From: a bacterium
Lineage (GTDB): Bacteria; Bdellovibrionota_G; JALEGL01
Assembly: GCA_022763185.1 (NCBI GenBank)
Contig: JALEGL010000005.1
Location: forward strand, 62,001 to 126,000
Length of the DNA stretch: 64,000 nucleotides
Direction of reading: 5' to 3'
Position 1 is the stretch's first letter. Each line of letters opens with the position of its first letter. The notes below the pieces were generated by a model. That model was not told where the DNA came from and did no database searches. It saw only the letters and a list, made by a program, of their open reading frames with translations. This document shows, in pieces, positions 28,278-57,459 of this stretch. Both the position numbers and the translations under genes were made by a program.

Positions 28278-28666
28278 TATGACTTTTTATCTTGAACTTC
28301 TACATAACGCATGCGCAGTTCATACAGTACCTGATCCATGAGTTTTTGCTCATTTTCATCCAAATTGCCTTTGGTTTTTTCACCCAACATCTCCAGAATA
28401 TCTACCTGTTGCTTAGCCAAAACCATATTTTTCTGGGTCTCATTGCTCACTGGATCAGGAACCAAGCCCATTTGGACTAAAGCTGAAGTGCTTATAGAAA
28501 GGACAAAAGAGGTAAAATTAATGGTGGGTGTATTTTGTGTTTCAGTTGATTGTGTTTCAGCTTCGGGTGCACTCGTCTTTGCTTGATTATCTTTTTCAGG
28601 CTTTTCTTGGCCACGCTTATCATTGACTGTGTAAGATTGTTCTGATTTTTTTTCATTGTTGCTCAT
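28277..28666 (-). CDS. DUF1844-family protein
   Basis: From ATG 28666 the product is 129 residues. The first 45 are Lys/Glu/Gln/Thr-rich and disordered; the conserved DUF1844 core follows (I-N-F-T-S-F-V-L-S-I-S-T-S-A-L-V-Q-M-G, then a helix with L-A-K-Q-Q-V-D-I-L and E-K-T-K-G-N-L, ending L-Y-E-L-R-M-R-Y). The family is small and occurs mostly in deltaproteobacteria-like genomes; its role is not known to me. The gene overlaps the end of the DUF4340 gene by 14 bases, so it belongs to the ABC/Gld-type operon. Confidence 0.85.
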   Translation of the reverse strand: MSNNEKKSEQSYTVNDKRGQEKPEKDNQAKTSAPEAETQSTETQNTPTINFTSFVLSISTSALVQMGLVPDPVSNETQKNMVLAKQQVDILEMLGEKTKGNLDENEQKLMDQVLYELRMRYVEVQDKKS

Positions 28667-30071
28667 TTTTATTATCCTTTGGTTTTGCATTCATGCTTAT
28701 ATCTACTGCATCAGATATAGACTTTATTGACTCTTTGTCAAATAGCAAATGTGAATTGTAGACTGAACTGTAGGCCTGAACATAGCTTAAGTTATGTTTC
28801 TTGTATGCTTCTTTATAAACCACCAAGCTCTGCTCTTGACCATCTTTACCTTTTAAAACAACCGTGTAGTCAACACTGAGATTTTTATTTTTATCTTGCT
28901 TTAAAAACCTATCGGCTTTTAGAGCAAACATAGCCCGACTGGCACCAAAAGCAGGACCTTCTTTATCATCCTGACTTACCCACTGATCACCACTTTGAAT
29001 AAAATTTTGGGTTTTATTGTTTTGAATCACCTCAAAAGCATTAATTTCACTGCCATTGATTGAAAATACTTTTTTAACCGCCAAGTCGCTTAAAGTATAA
29101 TAAAAGTGCCCTGGATCAACCGGGTCTTTTTTAAAAACATACGGTAAATCATCTCGATACAAAAAAGCATGGTAAGGCGTATCTTGACCTCCCTTGGGTC
29201 TAGACTCTCTCACATACAGTTTTTTAGTCTTCTGATTGTCTTCAACCACCTCAAACATAAAATCTGGCTTATTCAACAATGACTTTTTGATTACTGTTGA
29301 TAACTCTTTTTCTTCAATTAAGCCATCCACTTCAAAACTTTTTAAGTGATTTAATAAACCTTCAACTGCCAATTGATCTGCAAGTATATTGATGGGTTTT
29401 AGTAGCTGCCATTGATTGTTTTGCTTGCTTAAATGAAACTGTCCAGAAGTATTTTTTATATGAATGTCTTGAGGACGATTAAAGCCCATTAAATTTTTAT
29501 GCACATAGTCCTTGGCGTGTTCAGTTTGGGTTTCTTTGAGCTGTTGATCACTTAAATAAATAGACTCATTTTTTTTTGCAACATAGATGTAAGTCTCCAT
29601 TGTATTCATGTCACCGGTAAGAATAGTTTGTTCTGGAGTCTGTTGTTGGGCAGTAAAAATTTGTATTTCTGACTTTTCTGGACCAATGCCATAATCTGCA
29701 AATACATTCTTGCCTTTTGCGATGTATTTTTCTGCTTTGGCTGAGCTTATGTCTTCCAACAAACCTTCAACTTTTTTTTGATCTGCCAGATAACGAAACT
29801 CACCCCACTCAATGTACCATTGAGGCTCATCTTCAAACTCTTTGGCATATTCAGAAAATTCACTGGAATTCTCTTTGCTGCGTTTAAGCAATTGCCAGTG
29901 TCCTTGAGCATTACTGACTTTTATTTTTGTTATAGCATCTTTATTTAAGCTCAAAAGCAAAGCTTGTTGCTCTTTTATGGCTTCTTTTTTTTCTGATTGC
30001 TTAACATTCCACCAGTTTAAAACAATCAATGCCAGTAAAATAAAAAAAACAACGGCTATTTTTTTTAACAT
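28653..30071 (-). CDS. DUF4340-family protein of Gld-type ABC cluster
   Basis: From ATG 30071 (GGAG six bases upstream) the product is 472 residues, with one N-terminal membrane helix (residues 2-20; IAVVFFILLALIVLNWW) and a large periplasmic part. The repeat of W-Q-L-L-K-P/R segments (WQLLKRSKEN near residue 47 and WQLLKPINI near residue 225) and the A-D-Q-K/L-A-V-E-G-L-L motifs fit DUF4340, which is usually next to GldG-like genes. It probably forms part of the exporter complex encoded just upstream. Confidence 0.85.
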   Translation of the reverse strand: MLKKIAVVFFILLALIVLNWWNVKQSEKKEAIKEQQALLLSLNKDAITKIKVSNAQGHWQLLKRSKENSSEFSEYAKEFEDEPQWYIEWGEFRYLADQKKVEGLLEDISSAKAEKYIAKGKNVFADYGIGPEKSEIQIFTAQQQTPEQTILTGDMNTMETYIYVAKKNESIYLSDQQLKETQTEHAKDYVHKNLMGFNRPQDIHIKNTSGQFHLSKQNNQWQLLKPINILADQLAVEGLLNHLKSFEVDGLIEEKELSTVIKKSLLNKPDFMFEVVEDNQKTKKLYVRESRPKGGQDTPYHAFLYRDDLPYVFKKDPVDPGHFYYTLSDLAVKKVFSINGSEINAFEVIQNNKTQNFIQSGDQWVSQDDKEGPAFGASRAMFALKADRFLKQDKNKNLSVDYTVVLKGKDGQEQSLVVYKEAYKKHNLSYVQAYSSVYNSHLLFDKESIKSISDAVDISMNAKPKDNKNEQQ

Positions 30072-30129
30072 CACAATCTCCAAATTTTAAGATTCAGACC
30101 ATCATAAATTAGGCTTCATTTTTTAATGC

Positions 30130-31776
30130 TTAGCCTAATCTTTTTCTGTATAACCATAAATTTAAACCAAACAGCAAAACAAGCATGGGCAGTATAATAA
30201 TGGACAGATAAAAAATTACGTTGGCTTGTTTTGGGCTGAGCTCTATGGCCGAGCTTTTGATCAATTTAGGTCTAATGGATATTTGTTCAGTTTCGCCTCT
30301 TAAAAAGTTAAGGGCATTGATAAACAAATCATAATTGTACCGGTTCTGCCCCACCATGGCATTGGAAATAAAATCACTGTCACCCCACACAACAAGCTGC
30401 GCTTGTTTAATTTCTGGATCGTTGTCTCCTTCAACTTTAATTTCTAAATCTTTTTCTGACACTACACCTATACTGACTTTACCCACTGGATCAGTTTCTT
30501 TAATCACTGGTTTTTTATCAATGAACAAAGCTTGCAAGTCAGATTGTCCCCAACTGTTTTCTCCAGGAGCTGAAAAAGCCAATTCCACAACGGTTCCCTC
30601 AAATCCAGGAGCTTTGTTAACAGATCTTACTTGATCAAAGCTGGTATTTAAATTGCCGTTCATCCCTTGTTTTAAGGGTTCTACAATTGGGTGAGGGCCA
30701 TAATCGCTGATCATCAATTCTGTGGTTATTTGTACACCTTGCAGTAACGCCAAACGTTTTTCCAAAATAACGTTGTCACCCAAAGCCACACCCCAAGAAT
30801 TTAAAAAGTCTTTCAAACCACTCTCTACCAAGCGTACGGTGTTTTTATTCCCTGACAAGGTACTAATGTTGGGATCAAGTAACAACTGCACTTTTCCACC
30901 TGAAAGTAGATACTCATTTAAACTGATCACTTCATTGGCGCTGAAGGCACTTTGCGGACCAGCAATAACAACAATACTACAGCTTTTATCTATACTGGGC
31001 AGCATATTGCTGAGTGTTCTGATTTTAAAGCCTTCATTGACCAAACCAGGTTTGATAAAGCTTAAGCTTCTGGGATCTTGCGCATCTCCTTCTAATTTCA
31101 ATTCACCATGCCCTTGAGTAAAACAAAGCAAGGTTTCTCCGTTACGGGTTACTTTAAGGATAGCTTGGGTAATCTCTTGTTCTGAAGCTGCTTGCAAAAT
31201 ATGTTGTTGCTCACCGTACTGAATTAAAATATCTCCATCTTGCGCAGAGATTTTTTGTGCTTCAAGCTTGGCTACATCTGGGTCTTTAAACTCAACAAAA
31301 ACTTGCTTGCTTGCATCTTGGTAGTATTGCAATAGGTTTTTTAACCCTGGCTTTTGCTGATTGCTCTCCACCATAAACACATGAATCTTCAAAGGTTGCT
31401 TCAATTGCTCTAAAATTTTTATACTTTGATCAGACAGACTGTTAATTTTATTTTGGGTATAATCTTTTTTCCAATTTAAACTTCTACTGGAAATAACGTT
31501 CAACACAGCCAGGCAACACACAACCAAGACAATAAATACCGTATTGCCTAACCTTCCCTGATTTTTTTTATTGCCTAAGGCATCCTTGAGACCCCCTGGG
31601 CTTTTCATCAAGTGTTGAATACTCATCACCAAGTAATAGGCTAAAAATAACAAGGCTCCAATCATCAAACTTCTAAAAAACCAGTTGCCGCTGTCTTTGG
31701 TAATGGCATAGCCCAGTATGGCTCCCAACAAAAGAACCAAGCCAGTAACACCGCTCATCAATGATGTTGTCTTCAT
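30130..31776 (-). CDS. GldG-like ABC auxiliary protein
   Basis: The 548-residue product has hydrophobic segments near residues 10-25, 35-55, 78-95 and a C-terminal helix at about 520-542, with a large extracytoplasmic domain between. The domain matches the ABC auxiliary family linked to gliding (T-Q-G-H-G-E-L-K, I-V-V-I-A-G-P-Q-S-A-F-S, L-L-D-P-N, and V-W-G-D-S-D-F-I-S-N). These proteins sit on the ABC permease and probably handle an extracytoplasmic substrate. Only 3 bases separate its 5' end from the permease gene. Gliding itself is not shown. Confidence 0.85.
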   Translation of the reverse strand: MKTTSLMSGVTGLVLLLGAILGYAITKDSGNWFFRSLMIGALLFLAYYLVMSIQHLMKSPGGLKDALGNKKNQGRLGNTVFIVLVVCCLAVLNVISSRSLNWKKDYTQNKINSLSDQSIKILEQLKQPLKIHVFMVESNQQKPGLKNLLQYYQDASKQVFVEFKDPDVAKLEAQKISAQDGDILIQYGEQQHILQAASEQEITQAILKVTRNGETLLCFTQGHGELKLEGDAQDPRSLSFIKPGLVNEGFKIRTLSNMLPSIDKSCSIVVIAGPQSAFSANEVISLNEYLLSGGKVQLLLDPNISTLSGNKNTVRLVESGLKDFLNSWGVALGDNVILEKRLALLQGVQITTELMISDYGPHPIVEPLKQGMNGNLNTSFDQVRSVNKAPGFEGTVVELAFSAPGENSWGQSDLQALFIDKKPVIKETDPVGKVSIGVVSEKDLEIKVEGDNDPEIKQAQLVVWGDSDFISNAMVGQNRYNYDLFINALNFLRGETEQISIRPKLIKSSAIELSPKQANVIFYLSIIILPMLVLLFGLNLWLYRKRLG

Positions 31777-31779
31777 TTT

Positions 31780-32571
31780 TTACCTCCACCCTTGTGCATC
31801 TAAAGAACGATGGGTTAAAAACACAAATAAACCCGATAAACTTAAAAAATAAACAATATCCCTGCTGTCCACCACACCTCTAAGCATGGATTTCATATGT
31901 TCCGGTATAGAGATGTACTGAACTACACTGTAAAGCATACTACCCTCTTTCAAACCAATAGAACTGATCACAAATAACAACAGCAAAGCAACAAAAGTCA
32001 TCACAGCCGCCACAATCTGATTTTCTGTTAATGAGCTAGCAAACATTCCAATAGCCAATGCAGCCGCCGCATAAAGAAAAACACTCACATAGCCAGTTAT
32101 CACTGGCCCTAGCTCAGGGGGACTATCCAAACTGGCAAATAAAAAAACTTGATAAACAATGGTCGGCACAATCATCATCACCACAAACAAAAATGCCGAT
32201 ACATATTTTCCCCATACAATGTGCGTTGTACTTAAGGGCGCTGTTTTTAATAGCTCATCTGTTTTTTTACTTTTTTCTTCTGCAAAACTACGCATCATCA
32301 ACAGTGGAATTAAAAACAATAAAATAAACGCCATATTAAATAAGCTGGGGGCAATTACAATGTCATTAAGATTTAAACTTTCAAGATACTGCGGGTTTTG
32401 TGTCATTTGCGCTAAATTTTTATAGTTCTCATACATCATGCTGAATTTGCTTAAACCCACATAAAAGAAAAATCCCGTTAAGGATAAAAATACCACCATA
32501 ACCACATAGGCTATAGGCGAATAAAAATAGTGCTTCAACTCTTTCTCAACAATGGTCCACATCTTTTTCAT
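31780..32571 (-). CDS. GldF-like ABC transporter permease
   Basis: The 263-residue product has six membrane segments in the ABC-2 type layout: a first helix after W-T-I-V-E-K-E-L-K-H-Y-F-Y-S-P, then L-L-M-M-R-S-F-A-E-E-K (the E-x-x-x-G-like loop region) and G-K-Y-V-S-A-F-L-F-V. The family ABC-2 permease works with the ATPase upstream. The mRNA reads GAGG before ATG 32571. It is the second gene in the operon 33331-28277. Confidence 0.9.
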   Translation of the reverse strand: MKKMWTIVEKELKHYFYSPIAYVVMVVFLSLTGFFFYVGLSKFSMMYENYKNLAQMTQNPQYLESLNLNDIVIAPSLFNMAFILLFLIPLLMMRSFAEEKSKKTDELLKTAPLSTTHIVWGKYVSAFLFVVMMIVPTIVYQVFLFASLDSPPELGPVITGYVSVFLYAAAALAIGMFASSLTENQIVAAVMTFVALLLLFVISSIGLKEGSMLYSVVQYISIPEHMKSMLRGVVDSRDIVYFLSLSGLFVFLTHRSLDAQGWR

Positions 32572-32611
32572 GACTTACCTCTTTCAATAAACGCTCATTA
32601 TACCTAAACAA

Positions 32612-33331
32612 TTAATTTGTTTGGTTGAGCATGACATCAACAAACACTTCTTCTAGAGTTTTATTCTGAGTCAACTCTTTAATAGAGCCCTCAAGTGCTA
32701 TTTTCCCCTGATGCACAAACACCGCCCGATCACAAATCATATTCACCTCCGGTAAAATATGCGTGGACAAAATAATGGTATGCTCTTGGGATAAAGACTC
32801 AATAAGCGCTCTTATTTCTCGAATCTGCGTTGGATCCAAACCCACAGTGGGCTCATCAAGTATCAAAACATCTGGCTTATGGACAATGGCTTGGGCCAAG
32901 CCCACTCTTTGTTTGTAGCCTTTGGACAAGTTACCAATCATGCGTTTGGCAACTTGTTTCAAGCCACATTTCTCAATAGCCCACTCTATTTGTTCTTTTT
33001 GTAACTTGCTTGGAATTTCTCTAACTTTAGCCACAAACTTCAAAAAAGCTTCTACTGTAAAGTCAAAGTAAACAGGTGGCGTCTCAGGCAAATAGCCTAT
33101 GCGTCGCTTGACTTCCATAGGCTCTTTTAAAATGTCATAGCCTGCGATCAAGGCTGTTCCAGAACTTGGTTGCAAGGAACCGGTCATAATTCGCATGGTG
33201 GTGGTTTTACCGGCACCATTGGCACCTAAAAACCCCAAAATCTCACCTTTCTTTACTTTGAAAGAAATATCATTCACGGCTGTTATATCACCGTAGACTT
33301 TATAAATATGCTGCGCTTCAATCATGGGCAC
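32612..33331 (-). CDS. ABC transporter ATP-binding subunit (GldA-like)
   Basis: The 239-residue product has Walker A G-A-N-G-A-G-K-T-T near residue 36, the Q-loop L-P-E-T-P-P, the signature L-S-K-G-Y-K-Q-R-V near residue 135 and Walker B V-L-I-L-D-E-P-T. A 40-base gap separates it from the permease; a TATAAT in that gap (minus strand, near 32597) may be an internal promoter or chance. It leads the five-gene operon ATPase-permease-GldG-DUF4340-DUF1844. Confidence 0.93.
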   Translation of the reverse strand: MPMIEAQHIYKVYGDITAVNDISFKVKKGEILGFLGANGAGKTTTMRIMTGSLQPSSGTALIAGYDILKEPMEVKRRIGYLPETPPVYFDFTVEAFLKFVAKVREIPSKLQKEQIEWAIEKCGLKQVAKRMIGNLSKGYKQRVGLAQAIVHKPDVLILDEPTVGLDPTQIREIRALIESLSQEHTIILSTHILPEVNMICDRAVFVHQGKIALEGSIKELTQNKTLEEVFVDVMLNQTN

Positions 33332-35749: not shown

Positions 35750-36505
35750 TCATTCACCAGGATTAAGCTCATAAAAGCCATCCGTTCCGGTTACATCTCC
35801 ATTTGTATCAATATAAATTCCACGCGAGATCGTCCAAAAAGCATCTTGAGTTAATGGTGATGGCTGTGCAGCAATAGAATAACCAGTTGAACCCGTGTAA
35901 TCTCCGTCAGTATCAGCAAAAGCATAAATCATGAGTGTATTATTTTGATCTACACTATATTCAGCTGCCATATCAGAAGACGTATTGGCTTTGATTAAGA
36001 AATATCCCGGGCTTTCACTAATTAATGAAACACCCATAGTAGGATTTAGTGGATATTGCTTTTCTTCCCTATTGAATATCATTTCTGCTCCTACGTTTTG
36101 ATAGCTGGTTTGAACAGAACAGTTGTTATCGATATATAAGTTAGCTTTAGGTAAAACAAGACTACAAACATATTGTTTATTCATAGAAGGCCTATGGGAT
36201 GATGCCACATTCATATCGCAGTCAACTGTTTGACTGCTATAGCTCGATATAGGTGAAAAAGTAGGTGTAAAGTTAGCCGCACATGTTAAACCTAAAGAAT
36301 TAATTTTAGGATCCGCGTACCAAACAATCTCTGCATCATAAGCTTTACGCAATAGCAACTTAGCTTCGCTAGACTTACTTTTTTGAATATATTTTAAATA
36401 AGCCGGTACTGCTGTTGATGCCAACAAGCCAATAATAGCAATTGTAATCATCAGTTCGATTAGTGTAAAACCACTTAAAAAAAAGAAATTGAACTTATTT
36501 TTCAT
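35750..36505 (-). CDS. type IV prepilin-like protein
   Basis: The 251-residue product has a classic class-III signal: a short basic leader MKNKFNFFFLSG, cleavage before F-T-L-I-E-L and the conserved Glu5, then a hydrophobic alpha-helix (MITIAIIGLLASTAVPAYLKYIQ). The C-terminal globular part is Ser/Asn/Tyr-rich with three or more Cys, and is longer than a usual pilin (about 150). No pilus-assembly genes are present here. It sits on the minus strand between the membrane redox fusion and the multiheme genes. Confidence 0.85.
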   Translation of the reverse strand: MKNKFNFFFLSGFTLIELMITIAIIGLLASTAVPAYLKYIQKSKSSEAKLLLRKAYDAEIVWYADPKINSLGLTCAANFTPTFSPISSYSSQTVDCDMNVASSHRPSMNKQYVCSLVLPKANLYIDNNCSVQTSYQNVGAEMIFNREEKQYPLNPTMGVSLISESPGYFLIKANTSSDMAAEYSVDQNNTLMIYAFADTDGDYTGSTGYSIAAQPSPLTQDAFWTISRGIYIDTNGDVTGTDGFYELNPGE

Positions 36506-36758: not shown

Positions 36759-37331
36759 GTGCGTAAGTTATTGTTTTATAGTTTTATCCTAAGCTTATCT
36801 TTACCCTATATGGCTAAAGCACAGTTTTTTTCACCCGGAGATTTAAGTAAAGCCCATTACAAATATCTTAACGGCTTTTCTAAATGCACCAAATGCCATA
36901 CGGGCAATCGTAAAAAAGCCTGCTTAAAGTGTCATACCGATATTGCAAAAAAAATTGAATCGAAATCTGGCTACCATTACCGCAATGATAATAAACGCTG
37001 TTATCAGTGTCATGGCGAGCACCGGGGTAAAAAACATGATTTAAGAGATTTAAAACGCATTGGCTTTAAACATGAAGACACTGGCTGGCCTTTAAAGGGC
37101 AAACATAAACGCCTTGATTGTGAAGACTGCCACACGGATAAACGCGTTAACGCCATTACCGGTAAAAAAACTAAATTAACCACTTACCTCAAAAACTCTA
37201 GCAAATGCAGCTCCTGCCACCCAAATCCACACAAAAAACCAGAATACCAAAAACCTTGTGACGAGTGTCACAATGCCCAAGACTGGAATTATTTTGATTT
37301 TGCCAAAGATAAAAAAGTAAAGAAAAAATAA
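36759..37331 (+). CDS. 6-heme c-type cytochrome
   Basis: The 190-residue product has a signal peptide (KLLFYSFILSLSLPYMAKAQ) and six CxxCH heme-attachment motifs: CTKCH, CLKCH, CYQCH, CEDCH, CSSCH and CDECH. The start is GTG. After the signal, F-S-P-G-D-L-S-K-A-H-Y begins a stretch closely similar to the first 160 residues of the 27-heme protein (shared motifs include S-G-Y-H, G-W-P/S-L-x-G-K-H-K and A-I-T-G-K). It is a periplasmic electron carrier, likely working with the larger protein encoded 86 bases later. Confidence 0.93.
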   Translation: MRKLLFYSFILSLSLPYMAKAQFFSPGDLSKAHYKYLNGFSKCTKCHTGNRKKACLKCHTDIAKKIESKSGYHYRNDNKRCYQCHGEHRGKKHDLRDLKRIGFKHEDTGWPLKGKHKRLDCEDCHTDKRVNAITGKKTKLTTYLKNSSKCSSCHPNPHKKPEYQKPCDECHNAQDWNYFDFAKDKKVKKK

Positions 37332-37416: not shown

Positions 37417-39450
37417 TTGCTAACCAAGAATAAAAATGTTGCTGCTGTTTATTTTTTTTGCTGGGTATTAGGCTATTGTCAAATTGGACTTGCCCAGTTC
37501 AATACATGGATAAGTCCAGGTGCTTTATCTAAAGCCCACCAAGAAATCTCGGGCGTGAAAAATTGTACACTTTGTCACTCTACGGCTCAGGGCTTACCCA
37601 ACAAAAAATGCTTGACCTGCCATCAAGCCATTGCCAACAAGATCAAAAATAACTCTGGCTATCATGCTGTACAAACCGCACAGTGTTATCAATGTCATAA
37701 TGAACACAAAGGCATTGATTACGAACTTTTAGGTTTAAAACGACTTAACTTTGAACATGATCAAACCGGCTGGTCCCTTACTGGCAAACACAAACAGGTG
37801 CAATGCAAGCAATGTCACACCCAAAAGCGTAAACATGCCATAACAGGTAAGACAACTAAAAAAACCAGTTACCTTGCAGCCTCACCTCGCTGTTCTACTT
37901 GTCACAAAGATGTTCACAATAGTAAAAAGTCTCGCTTCAAACGTTGTCAAGACTGCCATCACTCTTACAACTTTAACAGCCTGATCAAACATTTGCGTTT
38001 TAATCACAATAGAGAAACAAACTTTCCCCTGACTGGCGCACATAAAAAGGTTGAATGTTACAGTTGCCACACTAAAAAAGTTTGGCGGCCTTTAAAATAC
38101 AAGCGCTGTACAAACTGCCATAGTGACCCGCACAAAGGAAGTTTTGGTTCCAATTGTCAAAAATGTCATAGCACAGACTCCTGGAAGGCGGGCAGTCAGT
38201 TAAGCAGCACTCAAAGTTCTTTTAAAGACTTCGATCATCAAAAAACACGTTTTCCTTTAACCGGTCAACACAGAAGCGTGACGTGTAAACGTTGCCACGG
38301 TAATACCATTGGTAAAATTAAAAATTTTAGCAAGTGCAGTGACTGTCACAACAATCCGCATGGGCAAGAATTTAAAAAACTATGGAAAAGCAAACAATGT
38401 CAAGACTGTCACTTAACTGAAGGATGGCAAATTTTATCTTTTCTTCACAATAAAGATTCACGCTATACATTAACCGGGCAACATACGGTTGTGGCTTGTG
38501 AAAAATGCCATCAAAACAGAAAATATCGCTGGTTAAAAAGCTCTCCCAAATGCAGTCAATGTCATCAAGATATTCACAACAATCAATTTGGTCAACAAGC
38601 TTGCTCTAACTGTCATAGCACCGCTGGTTTTTCACAAATGCAGTTTGACCACAACACTCAATCACGATTTAAGCTGGAGGGAGTTCACCGTTATGTCAGT
38701 TGCAAAAACTGTCACCAACAAGGAAAGTTTAGACCCCTTTCAACCAACTGCAAATCGTGTCACAATGACTTCCATCAGGGAGAACTGGGGCAACAATGTC
38801 AAAATTGTCACTCACCAACCCGCTTCAACGCGATTGAGTTTGATCATAACAAAAACTCTAGTTTTAAATTAGATGGTCAACATCGCTACCTCAACTGCAA
38901 TCAATGTCACCAAAACTTTAAATACAAACTTGGTATCAAGCGTTGTTCAGAATGTCACACAGATGTGCACAACAACTCATTTGGACAAAACTGTGAGCGT
39001 TGTCACAACACGCAAACTTTTGCCATGAAAAATAATTTTCATGATTTTGGTGAATATGAGCTCAAAGGTGCTCACAATCAATTGAATTGTTTGGTCTGCC
39101 ATGGTCCAAAGCAAGCGGTAAGATCTATTAAACCGCAATGTCAAAGTTGCCATCAAGACCCACACATGAATAGTTTTGGCTTACGCTGCCAAGACTGCCA
39201 TGGTCAAAACACTTGGCTCCCCACACAATTTAGACATGCGCAAACCGGCTTTGAGTTGTCCGGTGCCCATCGCTTCTTGTCCTGTGAGCAGTGCCATGTC
39301 AATCGTATCTTTGGTGGCTTGCCCAACGAATGTTCATTTTGTCATCTAAAAGATTTTGCATCTCCCATGATTATTCCTCAGCATGCTGGCGGCAATACTA
39401 ACTGTAAAGATTGTCATAGAACCTATGGTTGGAGACCCTCCAAACTATGA
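37417..39450 (+). CDS. 27-heme c-type cytochrome built from eight repeat units
   Basis: The 677-residue product has a signal peptide ending near G-L-A-Q and 27 CxxCH motifs by direct count. Eight repeat units start at residues about 112, 195, 272, 342, 410, 475, 540 and 605, each with a phenylalanine-led opening (often F-D-H-N), an L-x-G-x-H-R segment and three hemes. The start is TTG 37417, the only plausible one giving a signal peptide. The stop overlaps the ATG of the barrel gene (ATGA), which implies coupled translation. The protein is exported and covalently loaded with heme by machinery not in this window. Likely role: electron storage or long-range transfer in the periplasm or through the barrel. 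Confidence 0.93.
   Translation: MLTKNKNVAAVYFFCWVLGYCQIGLAQFNTWISPGALSKAHQEISGVKNCTLCHSTAQGLPNKKCLTCHQAIANKIKNNSGYHAVQTAQCYQCHNEHKGIDYELLGLKRLNFEHDQTGWSLTGKHKQVQCKQCHTQKRKHAITGKTTKKTSYLAASPRCSTCHKDVHNSKKSRFKRCQDCHHSYNFNSLIKHLRFNHNRETNFPLTGAHKKVECYSCHTKKVWRPLKYKRCTNCHSDPHKGSFGSNCQKCHSTDSWKAGSQLSSTQSSFKDFDHQKTRFPLTGQHRSVTCKRCHGNTIGKIKNFSKCSDCHNNPHGQEFKKLWKSKQCQDCHLTEGWQILSFLHNKDSRYTLTGQHTVVACEKCHQNRKYRWLKSSPKCSQCHQDIHNNQFGQQACSNCHSTAGFSQMQFDHNTQSRFKLEGVHRYVSCKNCHQQGKFRPLSTNCKSCHNDFHQGELGQQCQNCHSPTRFNAIEFDHNKNSSFKLDGQHRYLNCNQCHQNFKYKLGIKRCSECHTDVHNNSFGQNCERCHNTQTFAMKNNFHDFGEYELKGAHNQLNCLVCHGPKQAVRSIKPQCQSCHQDPHMNSFGLRCQDCHGQNTWLPTQFRHAQTGFELSGAHRFLSCEQCHVNRIFGGLPNECSFCHLKDFASPMIIPQHAGGNTNCKDCHRTYGWRPSKL
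37750..39420 (+). repeat. eight tandem triheme repeats in the 27-heme cytochrome gene
   Basis: Unit starts in DNA are near 37750, 37999, 38230, 38440, 38644, 38839, 39034 and 39229. Periods shorten from 83, 77, 70 and 68 codons to 65, 65 and about 65, so the C-terminal copies are the most regular and probably youngest or most constrained. Confidence 0.75.
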
Positions 39451-40880
39451 TGCGTTTTTTTATTCAATCTTGGTTTTTCATCAACTTTTTCAACTGCATG
39501 CTTTTTTTTAAGCTGTGCTATGCCCAAAACACTGACCAACAATTCAATGGCCATCTCAACCTAGGGTATTGGTCTGTAAGGCAAAATACTCTTGATCAAG
39601 ACAATGCTTTGCAAAATGATGGCGTGGGTCTAGACTACTTACAAGATCGTTATCGTTTATTGATGCTTGATCTTCGTTTGTACCAGCAAAAGACTATTTC
39701 AAATACAAAACAAACAAACTTTCGTTTTGTGGGCAAAAGTCGTTTCAATTTAGATGAGAGCGCTTACAGTCTGGCTTACAATCAAAAGAATCGCTATGAT
39801 ATCCGTGAGCTTTCCTTAGAGTATAAAAATCTTTTTGCAGGTCATGACTTTTGGTTGGGAAGACAGATTGTTTTTCAAAGTGGCGGTATGCGTTTTGATG
39901 GAGCTCGCATTGTATTTAACCTTGATAGCAGCAAACAACTGGGATTTTTCTCTGGCCTTGGTCAAGATCCAAGAAGCAACCTGGGCTTTATTGGCAATGA
40001 TCAAAACAATCAATTGATCAGCACTGACTTTTTTAGCTTAGGGAGTTATTACCAACTTAAAAATGATACCTTAAATTTTAGTAGCTCTTTTAATGCACTC
40101 CTCTATCAAGGGCAAATAGACCGTTTGTACAGCTTTATTCATAGTAGCTATACGCCGCATCGTCGTATACGTTTATCGGCTTTACTCAATTTTGCTTTTG
40201 TTCCTCAATCCTTAGATCAGCTGATGCTCAACATTTATTATATTTTTTCTGATCAAGTGAACAACAGTTTAAGCTTTACCCGTTGGTCCAACGTTGAGTA
40301 TGCCGCTTCACAAAGCTCACAAATTCCCAGCCAAGGACAATTTACACCAGACAGTTATGTCAATGGCAATGTATTCAACGACACCTTTTACACACAAATT
40401 AGAGACCAGATCAGTTACACTTTTTTACCAGGGCAAACTTTATTCACTGGCCTAGAACTAACCAAAAGAAGCTTTGACGACTTAAACCGGTCGCGTTATT
40501 TTATAGGATACAAAAACAATGCTTTATTTGATCCCAGCATTGATTTTAAAAGCCAAATTAATTTTATCAACAATTATAAAAGCGCCCATGTTGCTTTTGA
40601 TGTTGTATTGGGCAAAGATTTTTCTGATGGAAAATTGCGTTTAGAAAGTTTTTTTAATCGAGTTAGAACTGAACGGGATGTTTATTTAAACAACAGTTTA
40701 TCCACTTTGCCCACAGAAAATGAGCAAGAATATAGTTTTGGTGGCAATGCATTTTGGTACTTTAGCAGAAAAAACCTTTTACATGCTCGTTACCAAATAT
40801 TTAAAGAAGAGGACAGCCTCAATGATAATGATGCAATTACCGTCAATGATTTGTATGTGGGTACCAGCTTTAAATTTTAG
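39447..40880 (+). CDS. outer-membrane beta-barrel protein linked to the 27-heme cytochrome
   Basis: The 477-residue product starts at ATG 39447, whose last two bases overlap the cytochrome stop (ATGA). A signal peptide (FFINFFNCMLFFKLCYAQ) precedes a long run of alternating beta-strands rich in Tyr, Phe, Asn and Gln. The last residue is Phe in a G-T-S-F-K-F ending, the hallmark of outer-membrane porins. I see no clear match to MtrB, OmcB-type porins or another named family, but the fixed coupling to a multiheme gene suggests that the barrel holds or passes electrons from the cytochrome. It could instead be an unrelated porin that happens to be adjacent. Confidence 0.8.
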   Translation: MMRFFIQSWFFINFFNCMLFFKLCYAQNTDQQFNGHLNLGYWSVRQNTLDQDNALQNDGVGLDYLQDRYRLLMLDLRLYQQKTISNTKQTNFRFVGKSRFNLDESAYSLAYNQKNRYDIRELSLEYKNLFAGHDFWLGRQIVFQSGGMRFDGARIVFNLDSSKQLGFFSGLGQDPRSNLGFIGNDQNNQLISTDFFSLGSYYQLKNDTLNFSSSFNALLYQGQIDRLYSFIHSSYTPHRRIRLSALLNFAFVPQSLDQLMLNIYYIFSDQVNNSLSFTRWSNVEYAASQSSQIPSQGQFTPDSYVNGNVFNDTFYTQIRDQISYTFLPGQTLFTGLELTKRSFDDLNRSRYFIGYKNNALFDPSIDFKSQINFINNYKSAHVAFDVVLGKDFSDGKLRLESFFNRVRTERDVYLNNSLSTLPTENEQEYSFGGNAFWYFSRKNLLHARYQIFKEEDSLNDNDAITVNDLYVGTSFKF

Positions 40881-52163: not shown

Positions 52164-55100
52164 TCACTGCTCTTGCATATCAGATTCTACATACCTTTTT
52201 CGAAGTTCAAACTCAGCTGAGCTAACAACAACTTTTTCAGTGTATATCATGCTAGCCAAAAAAGCCTGAGAAAAATTAGGCGACATACGGTTTACACAAA
52301 AATTATACAACATCAAATGGTTTAAAAAAACACTTTTAAATGAATCGGCAAGGTCGAATCCCGTATAAAAAATAAAACGTTTCAGTGTGGGTGCATAGCT
52401 TGGATCGACATTTTTAAACACTGTACTGCCTTCATTTTGTCTGTGAATAAACATAGCATATGCATCAAGCAATTTTTCTTCTAACGCACTATCGCTTATA
52501 CTTTCCCAAAATCTTAAATCTTCTTGAGAAAATAAAATATTTTCATGGTTGTTTTGCTGTTCTAATTGAGAAATTTGATAATCAATTTGTTCTAACAAAT
52601 TAGAAGAGTGTATATCAGTTTTACTTGCATTGTATTGAATCATCTCACGTAACTGACCTTCAATTTCTTCAAAACTGTTACCATTAATATATGTTTGAAT
52701 ATTTTGAAGTTGTATTTCCTCATTATTCCAATAATGGTTATCCAACAATGAGTATAAGCCTGCATCAACACCCAAACGAACCCCCATGCTCAAACTATAG
52801 TCGTACAAAGGAACAAGCAGCATTGATTTACCCGCTGATGAAAAATTAGCAAGCTTTGCTTTTTTAACTAAACTATAAATAAATAAATCTAGAAATAATC
52901 TTGTCCAATATCGACCACTATCAACTTTATCATCCCAATGAACTACAGAATAAGCAGTAGTTTTTCCAGCTAGGCTTGCAAACATTGCTAAACTAGAAAA
53001 GTGTGCTTTATACATTTTATTGATATTAGTAGGAAACTGACATTGTTCAACGATTTGGCGTCTTGCGTTTGCAATCGACTTACTTCTTTCTAAAGCTTCA
53101 TGATGAGTTAACATTTTTCCAGTAACATGATCAGGATAATTTCTAGCTTTTGAATATTGTTTCCAAGCTACTTTTAAGTCTTTTCTTCTCTTGGCTAAAA
53201 TTTGCTTCGCTTTTCTTGCGTTACGTATATTTGGAACAACTCTCTCAATAATGTTATCTGAAACAATTGTAGAGAAATCTAATGGTTGTGAAGAATTACC
53301 GGTAAAATGTGTAAAAAGACCTTGTTCAATTCTTTTCACTTCCTGTTCAAGTTTATAGTAGTCCATAAAATCTAAGTCAATCGATCTTAATTGATTTTGT
53401 AACCTTCCTGTTCTTGACCATGATCTTTGAATAAATGGATTTAATGTTGCTTCATTTGGCCAAGCTAAATTAAAGCGTCTTAGAATCATTGTGTTAGAAT
53501 TTGTAATAGTATCACCATATGCTCTTTGAAACACTTTAAAGTCAAAAGAGGTTCTTAACGTTAAGTGTTCTTGTTCCATTTTAACAATAATTTTATCTAA
53601 ATTATATGTTGGCACATAACGTTCAACCCACTCTAAAAATTTTTCTTTATCACTACTTTGAGAAGCTGTATTATCAAGAATTCTTTTAAAACGACTTAAC
53701 TGTTGTTTTCTTACCGGATCAATTTTTAAAACGTTGTCTCTAAATACAATCTTATAGTCAAATGCGTTTCGTCTTTCATACTCAATAATTTTTCTATGCA
53801 AACTTTGTATATTTATCCTTCCTTGCCGATAGAGCTGATTAATAAAATTAAGCATCTTTTCCAATTCAACAGCGTCATCAGAAAAATAAATTAGTTTCTC
53901 TATAAACCAGCCATTCCTTGAATTCACAGGAAGGGTTAAGACATAATCAAGCAACTTATTTCTTACTCTATGCGAAAAATATCTAATATCATGTGAAAAA
54001 AATTGATTTACTCTTAAATCGGCTTCACCAACTATCCTTCTTAAAGGATCTCTTCTAATACTATTAATATCAATGCCACTGTGTTTTTGGATGATTTGTC
54101 TTGCTCTAGCTTCAAATTGATCTTCAGGTATATCCTTAAGCTCGTGATACATTTTTCTAAAACGAAAAAAATCACCATCATATAGCTTTGGGTCAGAAAG
54201 TATTGTAATTGTATTTATATCCAATACAGCTTCAACATTTTGATTTCTTTTAATTAAAGCTTGCAAGGTTACAAATGCATTTCTTTTAAAATCTCTATAG
54301 GCTGGATTAAATATTAACTCATGTATATGTTGAGCATAGGGCTTAAGGTCTTGAATCACTCTCAATAAAGCAGCTCCATCAAACATCAATGCCAAAGCCA
54401 AAGAAATTTTTGCATCTAAAAACATGCCTTTATATTCGGCATAAACAGCATGACTATCAACTGCATTTTTGTGATTGGCAATAAAACTTTTTCTACTATT
54501 TTGTACTGCTTGATGATAACGATCTTTTGCATTAATAAAAAGCATCGTTTCTAAAGAACCTACTACAAAAAGAGCTGAAATTTTAGTGAACAAAGCATGA
54601 GATCCAACTCCTCGAGTAAAAATTGCAACTAAAACGCCTGAACCAACCAAAGCAATGTTTTGAGCCGTTCTATAAAAAACGTCTCTTTTATACTGTTTAT
54701 CTAGAAGTATCTCACTGACATAATATCCCATTTCCGCTGACGCAATAACTGAATCATCATCAAATAAATTCTCACCAATTAATGCGTCTACTAAAGCAAG
54801 AGGGTAAATTAAAACATAATCATCGAGCCTTTCAGAAAGCTCATAATATCTTCCGCCATTAATAATTTCAAAGTCACTCTTTAAATCATCAAACATTTGA
54901 ATAAGTGTTGAAAAATAAGTGTTCTCGATTTCATTAAGAGAAAAGACTTTTCTTTCTTCAAGAAGTTTCATTGCCCAATGAACTTTAGGTACATCCGATG
55001 ATTTTAAGTACATTTTTAACGGGTGTGAAAAATTTTCTGACCAAAGAGTATCTTGAGGCTTGGCAAAAATATAGCCCATATTTACACATCTATTTTTTAG

Positions 55101-56498
55101 TTCTTCACTGTTGTTACTATAATATATACTGGATAAAAACTGATCTTGACCAAAAAGAAAGTACCATTTTCGTTGTTTAAAAAAAGCAAAAAATGGGTCA
55201 AGTACTTCATAATGAAAGTTACTAGAATTTCTATATTTACTATTGCTACCCCTGTTCATCCAGCATTTTTGATTAAGGGATGAAATAAACTGTTCAATAG
55301 CGTAAACATCTTGTTCAGTATATGCCCATTCTTTTTCATCTGTAGCGTTGTCTAAAATTAGCGTACATTTTTTTTCTTCTTCAGTATAGCTTTGCGCTTC
55401 ATATTCTGTTAAACTATTATCAAGATCACATTGTTCCAGATCCTCAAAAGCATAAACAATACCAATTTCTAAACTAACTTGCATGTGATCCTGTTCACAA
55501 ATTGACTGTGCTTTTTCACCACTCTGGTAGCAAACAACTTGTCTCGCCCAACGATTAAATCTATCCCAACTATTTTTAATCTGGATAAGTTTGTTTCTGG
55601 GCATTCTCCTTAAGTCGTATGCTAATCGCTCTTTTATAACTCTTTTGAGTTGATTTTTGGCTGCACTTTGAAAAAGACTAGTCGCATAAAGCTCAATATT
55701 TTGATTTACATTATCAATTATTATTTCCTGTTGGTTATTTTCATTTGTATTTATAACTTTATGATAGTTAGAGTTTGGATTTAACACTAAACGATCTTTA
55801 TATTCATTAAAATACATAGTATTTATATCATTTGCTTTTTCAAAAAAATCATCTTGTGAATGTTGATAGTCTGAGAACCTATAACTGCGATAACCTGGGC
55901 TTAAATACATACGAGCAAACATTTGTTTTTTTCTTAATGCATCAAAATGATGATGATTTGCAAACTCTTCCTCTATTTTAGCTAGCATAAAGCCAACATT
56001 TTTTTTCAGCTTTGCATTGCTCAATTTCTCAGTTTCATTAAAAAACATTTGCTTTAAATCTTGAGAATAACCTTTCATCTCAGATTGCGTATCGTTGGAT
56101 AAGTTTTCCGAACTGTATAGAGGTGCTAAAAAAGCACAATACCAATAAAGAGACTTTTCTTGTGTTGGTCTTAAAAAATCATGACATTTGACGCCATTTT
56201 CACAGTTATCTAAATAGTTCTTATACTCACCACTTTGAATTGTAGCCGTTAAGTTTTGAATTGCTACTTGAGCAAAGTCTAAAAAATCTTGCTTACATCC
56301 ACCCTCAACAATTGAATAACCTAGTAAATCACTATTATAAACAGATGTACCTAACTTTTCCTTGAAAATATTGGCACACATATTAGGGACGTTGACACTT
56401 ACACTCGAAAAAACGCTAAAAGAAAAACAAAAAGTTACTCCTAAAAAACACCATTTTAACTTTTGAAATGATTTATAGTGTAACTTATCTAAAATCAT
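52164..56498 (-). CDS. 1444-residue secreted protein of unknown function
   Basis: From ATG 56498 (AAAGGA six bases upstream) the product is 1444 residues; the longer frame from 56561 would run into the previous gene. A signal peptide (WCFLGVTFCFSFSVFSS) is followed by a largely helical, Asn/Glu/Arg/Tyr-rich body with several Cys in the first 500 residues. Two hydrophobic segments sit near residues 660-700 (IALVGSGVLVAIFTRG and ALFVVGSLETMLFI) and another near 1250. No family, repeat or catalytic motif is recognised. The start overlaps the preceding gene by 14 bases, so it belongs to a three-gene operon. Confidence 0.75.
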   Translation of the reverse strand: MILDKLHYKSFQKLKWCFLGVTFCFSFSVFSSVSVNVPNMCANIFKEKLGTSVYNSDLLGYSIVEGGCKQDFLDFAQVAIQNLTATIQSGEYKNYLDNCENGVKCHDFLRPTQEKSLYWYCAFLAPLYSSENLSNDTQSEMKGYSQDLKQMFFNETEKLSNAKLKKNVGFMLAKIEEEFANHHHFDALRKKQMFARMYLSPGYRSYRFSDYQHSQDDFFEKANDINTMYFNEYKDRLVLNPNSNYHKVINTNENNQQEIIIDNVNQNIELYATSLFQSAAKNQLKRVIKERLAYDLRRMPRNKLIQIKNSWDRFNRWARQVVCYQSGEKAQSICEQDHMQVSLEIGIVYAFEDLEQCDLDNSLTEYEAQSYTEEEKKCTLILDNATDEKEWAYTEQDVYAIEQFISSLNQKCWMNRGSNSKYRNSSNFHYEVLDPFFAFFKQRKWYFLFGQDQFLSSIYYSNNSEELKNRCVNMGYIFAKPQDTLWSENFSHPLKMYLKSSDVPKVHWAMKLLEERKVFSLNEIENTYFSTLIQMFDDLKSDFEIINGGRYYELSERLDDYVLIYPLALVDALIGENLFDDDSVIASAEMGYYVSEILLDKQYKRDVFYRTAQNIALVGSGVLVAIFTRGVGSHALFTKISALFVVGSLETMLFINAKDRYHQAVQNSRKSFIANHKNAVDSHAVYAEYKGMFLDAKISLALALMFDGAALLRVIQDLKPYAQHIHELIFNPAYRDFKRNAFVTLQALIKRNQNVEAVLDINTITILSDPKLYDGDFFRFRKMYHELKDIPEDQFEARARQIIQKHSGIDINSIRRDPLRRIVGEADLRVNQFFSHDIRYFSHRVRNKLLDYVLTLPVNSRNGWFIEKLIYFSDDAVELEKMLNFINQLYRQGRINIQSLHRKIIEYERRNAFDYKIVFRDNVLKIDPVRKQQLSRFKRILDNTASQSSDKEKFLEWVERYVPTYNLDKIIVKMEQEHLTLRTSFDFKVFQRAYGDTITNSNTMILRRFNLAWPNEATLNPFIQRSWSRTGRLQNQLRSIDLDFMDYYKLEQEVKRIEQGLFTHFTGNSSQPLDFSTIVSDNIIERVVPNIRNARKAKQILAKRRKDLKVAWKQYSKARNYPDHVTGKMLTHHEALERSKSIANARRQIVEQCQFPTNINKMYKAHFSSLAMFASLAGKTTAYSVVHWDDKVDSGRYWTRLFLDLFIYSLVKKAKLANFSSAGKSMLLVPLYDYSLSMGVRLGVDAGLYSLLDNHYWNNEEIQLQNIQTYINGNSFEEIEGQLREMIQYNASKTDIHSSNLLEQIDYQISQLEQQNNHENILFSQEDLRFWESISDSALEEKLLDAYAMFIHRQNEGSTVFKNVDPSYAPTLKRFIFYTGFDLADSFKSVFLNHLMLYNFCVNRMSPNFSQAFLASMIYTEKVVVSSAEFELRKRYVESDMQEQ

Positions 56499-57459
56499 TT
56501 TTAATCCTTTCACAGAGTATTTTATATGCTTGAAAGGATTGTTGTTTCTGGTTTTTATCACTAATTTTTTCTATCCCACTCAACACATTCAAAGTTTTAA
56601 AAATGGTATATGGAATATCTATTTCCATAAGATAGAGACTATTGTTTTCCTGAGCAAGCGAAACATTCATATGTGATTGACTCTGTTCATTCTGTTTATT
56701 AAAAATTAATATTGGCTCATGAATCGGCAACAATTCTATGAGTTCTTTTTTACTAGGATAGTATGTTAGGCTTGTCCTGACATAGCGATAAGGAATCCAC
56801 TTTTTATACTGTTTAACTGAATAATATTGTACTCTTTGATGTAGCTCACCTATCAAAGCATATTGCATTTTTCTTGAATAACCTTCTTCTTGAATAGAAT
56901 TATTAACTAGATAATCTTCACTCAAGTAACTTAAAGACAGATCTTCTAATTCATTAACGCTCAGAGCATCTTTAAAACGAAAAAATTCAATTGAATTGGA
57001 AAAATGATTATTGAGAAAAAAATCACACTGATTTGTTAACCATTTATATTCATCGTTATCAAAGCTAATGCTAGCAGGAATTCCATACTTTTGTACAACC
57101 GACAACGCAGCTTCTAAAGTTTTTGATTCTTGATTGTTGACTATTAAAAAATACAATAGTTTTTCTAAGCTTTTATATTTTCTATATCCGTAACTATTTT
57201 CAACTGAATATCCGGGATAAGCTATTAATCCAAAAGCAGAAGGAGATGATAATTTTATTCTAGGAACTGTATGCATTAATTCAAATGCTCTTGAAAGCAA
57301 AACTGAAGATTTGTAAGTTGGATCATCACTAATAAGTGATTGTTCAGAATATTTAGAGTTAAAAACCCAAATCATTCTGCCTTCTTGAGAAAAAGCAACT
57401 GAAAGACAAATAAATAACGTAACGCAATAAAAAAACCTTAGTTTATACTGATATTTCAA
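56485..57459 (-). CDS. secreted protein of unknown function, operon partner of the giant gene
   Basis: I take TTG 57459, because GGGGG sits five bases before it; a TTG four codons upstream lies on top of the ribosome site itself. The product is 324 residues with a signal peptide (YKLRFFYCVTLFICLSVAFSQ). The mature protein is Ser/Tyr/Asn/Leu-rich; no family recognised. Its end overlaps the giant gene start, and 23 bases separate it from the first gene of the operon. Confidence 0.7.
   Translation of the reverse strand: MKYQYKLRFFYCVTLFICLSVAFSQEGRMIWVFNSKYSEQSLISDDPTYKSSVLLSRAFELMHTVPRIKLSSPSAFGLIAYPGYSVENSYGYRKYKSLEKLLYFLIVNNQESKTLEAALSVVQKYGIPASISFDNDEYKWLTNQCDFFLNNHFSNSIEFFRFKDALSVNELEDLSLSYLSEDYLVNNSIQEEGYSRKMQYALIGELHQRVQYYSVKQYKKWIPYRYVRTSLTYYPSKKELIELLPIHEPILIFNKQNEQSQSHMNVSLAQENNSLYLMEIDIPYTIFKTLNVLSGIEKISDKNQKQQSFQAYKILCERIKNDFR

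Follow-up and report, generated by a model that had tools for sequence, protein, structure and literature searches.

A Likely Periplasmic Wire: A 27-Heme c7-Type Cytochrome in a PCC3-Like Locus of a Bdellovibrionota_G Bacterium

Can both membranes of a Gram-negative cell be bridged by a single protein? This testable question is touched by a cytochrome gene in the 64,000-nucleotide stretch of bacterial DNA analyzed here (the window). A review calculation gives ca 27 as the number of hemes needed to cross a periplasm of ca 200 Å, and the ten-heme MtrA is thought to be too short to reach across (PMC7096707). The cytochrome encoded in the window has exactly 27 heme motifs, and so does its homologue in another family. 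We consider it likely that this protein serves as the periplasmic wire in a PCC3-like porin-cytochrome system, in which it would bridge an inner-membrane redox protein (IMP) and an outer-membrane barrel.

PCC3 is a predicted porin-cytochrome complex with a putative role in extracellular electron transfer, and its periplasmic multiheme cytochrome (MHC) has a median of 21 hemes (PMC5566968). This protein carries 21, 24 or 27 hemes in the Gallionellaceae, where it is considered capable of spanning the periplasm (PMC10734462). Since periplasm-spanning cytochromes have thus already been described in iron-oxidizing bacteria, the 27-heme protein of the window is not new in kind. What is new is the unusual set of genes that surrounds it.

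The open reading frame of the cytochrome starts with TTG and contains exactly 27 CxxCH motifs, while neither CX3CH nor CX4CH occurs anywhere in its 677 residues. The motifs account for 54 of the 56 cysteines, and the remaining two lie in the predicted cleavable signal peptide. In 2000 shuffles of the residues, the mean number of CxxCH was 0.39 and the maximum 3. A sequence-only reading of the window had arrived at the same count and at a density of one heme per 25 residues, both of which are correct, and it had also rightly noted that the period shortens and becomes regular toward the C-terminus, where from about heme 15 onward the CxxCH spacings are ca 33/16/16. The protein has no lipobox, and no transmembrane (TM) helix follows the signal peptide. 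The protein is real, and its 27 hemes are a prediction from sequence that is backed by the retention of all sites in a homologue that stems from a different family within the order (genome G003, L003:266-2299), which is 52 % identical and has 27 CxxCH motifs, all aligned. Among the histidines that lie outside the motifs, 30 in all, 27 are kept in this homologue (His140, His182 and His192 are not), which corresponds to one per heme and three per unit in the comparison of the two proteins. As this number matches the number of hemes exactly, every heme is probably bis-His ligated. A further homologue, in genome G001, is cut off by the contig end after its first 15 hemes, and a scan of 84,980 named genomes using exact peptide patterns from the protein returned a single weak match (L013, 29 % in its best segment).

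Cutting the chain after every third heme yields nine units, and not the eight repeats counted earlier. All nine can be aligned, with invariant columns for a leucine, a histidine and the three CxxCH motifs (Table 1), whereas overlapping segments of the protein gave an alignment that was out of register. Units 2 to 9 have the common pattern F.H....F.L.G.H..V.C..CH...C..CH.D.H...G..C..CH. Unit 1 is divergent, but its three CxxCH motifs and one leading histidine still align with the other eight.

Table 1. Predicted features of the cytochrome locus, in positions of the window.
Feature	Position	Strand	Basis
IMP, cNMP-type domain, four 4Fe-4S clusters and ca five TM helices	33509..35491	+	domain matches, PCC3/PCC4 signature
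Hexaheme paralogue of units 1-2, 190 aa, 6 CxxCH, signal peptide	36759..37331	+	identity to 27-heme protein
27-heme c-type cytochrome, 677 aa	37417..39450	+	signal peptide ca residues 1-27, nine triheme units; PF14522 118 bits
Triheme unit 1, hemes 1-3, divergent, N-terminal	37504..37743	+	unit alignment
Triheme unit 2, hemes 4-6	37744..37992	+	unit alignment
Triheme unit 3, hemes 7-9	37993..38226	+	unit alignment
Triheme unit 4, hemes 10-12	38227..38436	+	unit alignment
Triheme unit 5, hemes 13-15	38437..38640	+	unit alignment
Triheme unit 6, hemes 16-18	38641..38838	+	unit alignment
Triheme unit 7, hemes 19-21	38836..39033	+	unit alignment
Triheme unit 8, hemes 22-24	39034..39228	+	unit alignment
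Triheme unit 9, hemes 25-27, C-terminal	39226..39447	+	unit alignment
Putative outer-membrane beta-barrel (porin)	39429..40880	+	overlaps 27-heme ORF; likely ATG start 39450

Contrary to the earlier suggestion, the repeat can be assigned to a named family. The Pfam family Cytochrome_C7 (PF14522) matches nine stretches of the protein with 118.2 bits (E 1.3e-34), far above its curated gathering cut-off of 24.8. Searched against the PDB, the profile of the nine units finds GSU1996 (3ov0, E 2e-10), HmcA-type cytochromes and, weakly, chain A of 6r2q, an entry that we take to be the MtrCAB complex (the database label for the chain differs). On the strength of the Pfam and PDB profile matches, the repeat is placed in the c7/c3 superfamily. 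The MtrA/DmsE decaheme model TIGR03508, on the other hand, gives 19.4 bits, far below its cut-off of 192.2. The idea of a new nanowire-like or charge-storage protein can thus be retained as regards the wire-like triheme repeat but not as regards newness, since chains of 27 hemes are already found in PCC3 and in GSU2210 of Geobacter.

We now consider the neighboring genes. The gene 85 bases upstream of the cytochrome encodes a hexaheme protein whose identity to residues 8-187 of the 27-heme protein, which comprise its units 1 and 2, is 46-50 %. In a small tree it groups with the 27-heme protein of the window and not with those of the relatives (support 82/89), a placement that is tentative because the branches are long. 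The downstream open reading frame overlaps the cytochrome gene and encodes 483 residues that begin with a signal peptide, end in phenylalanine and contain no heme motif. It has 18 amphipathic strands, compared to a mean of 12.5 in shuffled sequences, a modest signal given that 6 of 300 shuffles reach 18. Homologues are present in G003, where the gene adjoins that of the 27-heme protein, and in G001. Gene order, together with these weak sequence signals, suggests a putative outer-membrane barrel. Neither the PDB nor, above cut-off, Pfam gave a match for it; a YutD-like match of 21 bits is below the cut-off and was rejected as chance, and a single-sequence AF2 model with a pLDDT of 31 was discarded. 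The Pfam and PDB searches found no MtrB or MtrC homologue at the locus.

The IMP consists of 660 residues, with 16 cysteines in four 4Fe-4S clusters between residues 195 and 324. Hydropathy shows four clear TM helices, to which a heme-bearing one at residues 460-478 is added. The conserved IMPs of PCC3 and PCC4 have five TM helices, with WX3HX13H on TM3 and TM5 and SGxxG on TM4, a signature that He et al. liken to a di-heme ferric reductase domain (PMC5566968). The window protein has WX3HX13H twice (W460/H464/H478 and W630/H634/H648) and TGMFG at 501, so that the PCC3 signature is present with T in place of S. The signature W and H residues are invariant in an alignment of five proteins, which includes two fused relatives, the stand-alone protein of Emticicia and one FAD/NAD fusion. 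The IMP is therefore predicted to be a di-heme b protein. In its cNMP-type domain (residues 69-140), the normal arginine of the cyclic-nucleotide pocket seems by eye to be absent (NLTASKVVA), and the domain may for this reason not bind cAMP. It can also be noted that genes for ABC-2 transporter, DUF4340 and ABC_transp_aux proteins (28653-33331, minus strand) adjoin the IMP gene. The IMP contig of G003 carries the same set, and G001 has at least its ABC genes, such that ABC-type transporter genes are next to the IMP gene in G000, G001 and G003.

The cytochrome, the putative barrel and the full-length IMP occur together in three (G000, G001 and G003) of the five genomes that were compared for the phylum. 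In the other two, G002 (74 % complete) and G004, neither cytochrome nor barrel was found, and the IMP appeared only as short Fe-S matches. The window's genome is small and contains cytochrome c assembly proteins and two haem-copper oxidases; RuBisCO was not found in it. Closely spaced CxxCH pairs are confined to the present operon and one pentaheme gene, which is QrcA/ActA-like and located beside a molybdopterin-oxidoreductase-like gene, while the isolated single matches elsewhere are at about the chance level of a control pattern. This search, which widely spaced hemes would escape, gave no extracellular MHC at the locus or in the rest of the genome, of which a few percent are missing. The locus is thus unusually simple, and, apart from the pentaheme gene, its function would not be masked by redundancy. 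Two open reading frames elsewhere in the window have no Pfam match at E 1e-4, namely 52164-56561 (minus strand, 1465 aa) and 608-3328 (minus strand, 906 aa).

Comparison with known systems places the locus close to PCC3. It shares with the PCC3 of Sideroxydans, Leptothrix and Gallionellaceae (PMC5566968, PMC10734462) a heme-rich periplasmic MHC and an IMP in which WX3HX13H occurs twice along with S/TGxxG, and it has a putative barrel gene. It differs in that there is no extracellular MHC, that the IMP is fused to cNMP-type and 4Fe-4S domains (660 compared to ca 300 aa), and that the hexaheme paralogue is an extra component. The missing extracellular MHC, the linkage of an Fe-S domain to the IMP (Subgroup II) and the same IMP signature are reminiscent of PCC4 (PMC5566968), but the MHCs of PCC4 are three small ones with 4, 5 and 10 hemes, whereas here there is one of 27 and one of 6. 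Membership of PCC3 proper was consequently dropped because of the missing extracellular MHC and the fused IMP, and that of PCC4 proper because of the heme numbers, and we regard the system as a PCC3-like variant that is neither of the two. To MtrCAB and MtoAB it is similar in combining a putative porin with a probable periplasmic multiheme wire, and the unit profile has its weak match to 6r2q. The 10 hemes of MtrA, the low score of the DmsE/MtrA model and the lack of MtrB and MtrC homologues at the locus set it apart. PCC3-like systems are hereby extended to a small phylum, represented here by five genomes, and linked to cytoplasmic Fe-S chemistry.

A related, PCC3-like cluster is found in the Bacteroidota, on the plasmid pEMTOL02 of Emticicia oligotrophica (L037, 9751-18447), where the genes are annotated merely as 'cytochrome c3 family' and 'hypothetical'. 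The order is IMP, FeS-NAD(P) protein, 23-heme MHC, 40-heme MHC and hypothetical protein, with a CcsA gene just upstream. A homologous MHC (32 % identity over 87 %), the IMP signature and a hypothetical protein in the position of the barrel are common to both clusters. In contrast to the window, the MHC has 23 hemes and is accompanied by a second one of 40, and the IMP is separate from the FeS/NAD(P) protein.

In the mechanism that we propose, the nine c7-type triheme units would form an extended heme chain with a predicted length of ca 200 Å, equal to the width of the periplasm. The cytoplasmic 4Fe-4S clusters and the two b hemes of the IMP would carry electrons across the inner membrane, the N-terminal hexaheme module would dock on the IMP, and the compact C-terminal units would reach into the barrel encoded directly downstream. 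A diffusing shuttle would then not be needed for electrons to move between the cell exterior and the cytoplasm or inner membrane. The hexaheme paralogue probably lengthens the same chain or supplies it with electrons. The function of the barrel, the length of the chain, its docking ends and the direct electron transfer are all inferred. The orientation is suggested by the N-terminal module (SPGxLSKxH, hemes 1-6), which is present in the first but not the second MHC of both the Emticicia cluster and a second system in G003 and which is duplicated as the hexaheme protein, and which we thus expect to face the inner membrane.

The assignment as a wire between the membranes is backed by the overlapping barrel gene, the adjacency of the two genes in G003, the IMP signature and the co-occurrence in three of five genomes. 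The heme numbers of the PCC3 MHCs, the published estimate of ca 27 hemes, the Emticicia cluster and the cytochrome c assembly genes lend further support. A number of observations count against it. The putative barrel resembles no known family or structure in the searches given above. The IMP gene is split from the cytochrome genes by an opposite-strand gene, and in G001 unrelated genes, instead of the pilin-like one, lie in between. The gene in the window, at 35750-36505 on the minus strand, encodes a type IV pilin-like protein (N_methyl). As no extracellular cytochrome was found, the outer terminus of the conduit is unaccounted for. Finally, modelling gave no support for the proposed length of the chain: a model of a two-unit segment, with the sister units as alignment, has a pLDDT of 54 and shows no more than short helices at the CxxCH sites; Foldseek gave no match with this model.

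Among other explanations, a free periplasmic electron store without a fixed bridge to the outer membrane, as proposed for GSU1996 and GSU2210, seems unlikely to us. The periplasmic nanowire cytochromes of Geobacter are considered to be capacitors; GSU2210 likewise carries 27 hemes, and GSU1996 is built from four triheme domains with 12 hemes, including one His-Met heme per domain (PMC10138318). Many hemes per chain and the tandem triheme design are thus shared with the window protein, and its unit profile matches 3ov0. However, the NCBIfam model of the GSU1996 type (TIGR04257, nanowire_3heme) reaches just 17.7 bits with a cut-off of 40, which is why membership of that family was dropped, and the 27 conserved histidines point to bis-His ligation throughout instead of one His-Met heme in each domain. 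It is the gene neighborhood, with the overlapping barrel gene in the operon and the co-occurrence with porin and IMP, that leads us to prefer a fixed conduit across the periplasm to a free store of charge of the kind described for the Geobacter proteins.

The protein could instead be held by the porin and project outward, like the extracellular MHC of PCC3, without connecting to the inner membrane. An extracellular system would require some component at the cell surface, and no separate extracellular MHC was found in the genome; moreover, compactness and regularity are greatest in the C-terminal part. Such an arrangement is nevertheless quite unlikely, as the N-terminal module is shared with the first and not the second MHC of the other clusters, and the IMP would be left with no multiheme partner except the hexaheme protein. 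A very unlikely option is that the protein relays electrons to an enzyme of the periplasm or outer membrane, serving metal or oxyanion detoxification or redox sensing and not extracellular respiration, in which the barrel passes small substrates only. It would be in line with the small genome, its two haem-copper oxidases, the pentaheme ActA/QrcA-like gene and the lack of RuBisCO, and no other genes of this kind for extracellular electron transfer were found in the genome. The operon, however, contains no candidate reductase, and the IMP is the sole catalytic-looking partner.

Regarding the direction of electron flow through the proposed periplasmic wire, the published PCC3 models propose uptake from Fe(II). 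For the window system we lean, by analogy, toward export over uptake, because the fused 4Fe-4S domain (joined by an FAD/NAD domain in a sister system) resembles the cytosolic input side of ferric reductase/NOX-type proteins, and because no RuBisCO was found. A bolder version, which we put forward only tentatively and consider rather doubtful, is that the locus encodes a minimal quinone-independent line from the cytoplasm to the surface. The IMP, with cytoplasmic 4Fe-4S clusters and a di-heme membrane domain on one polypeptide, would here feed a single 27-heme protein of fixed length, the 27 hemes being retained between families, which would act as a ruler of the periplasm and itself thread the barrel, with neither a shuttle nor an extracellular cytochrome.

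The second, different multiheme system in the relatives was not found in the window's genome. It is located in G003 (L016, C311, 3525-8367) and in G001 (L015, C21, minus strand from ca 8350), with a 20-heme and a 10-heme MHC in both. As read in L016, its IMP is fused to 4Fe-4S and thioredoxin-reductase-like FAD/NAD domains. A barrel-like protein is encoded beyond, on the opposite strand. Near this system in G001 (L015, 4632-6008), a decaheme protein with a lipobox-like LIFSGCS signal is encoded, which is a candidate surface lipoprotein cytochrome.
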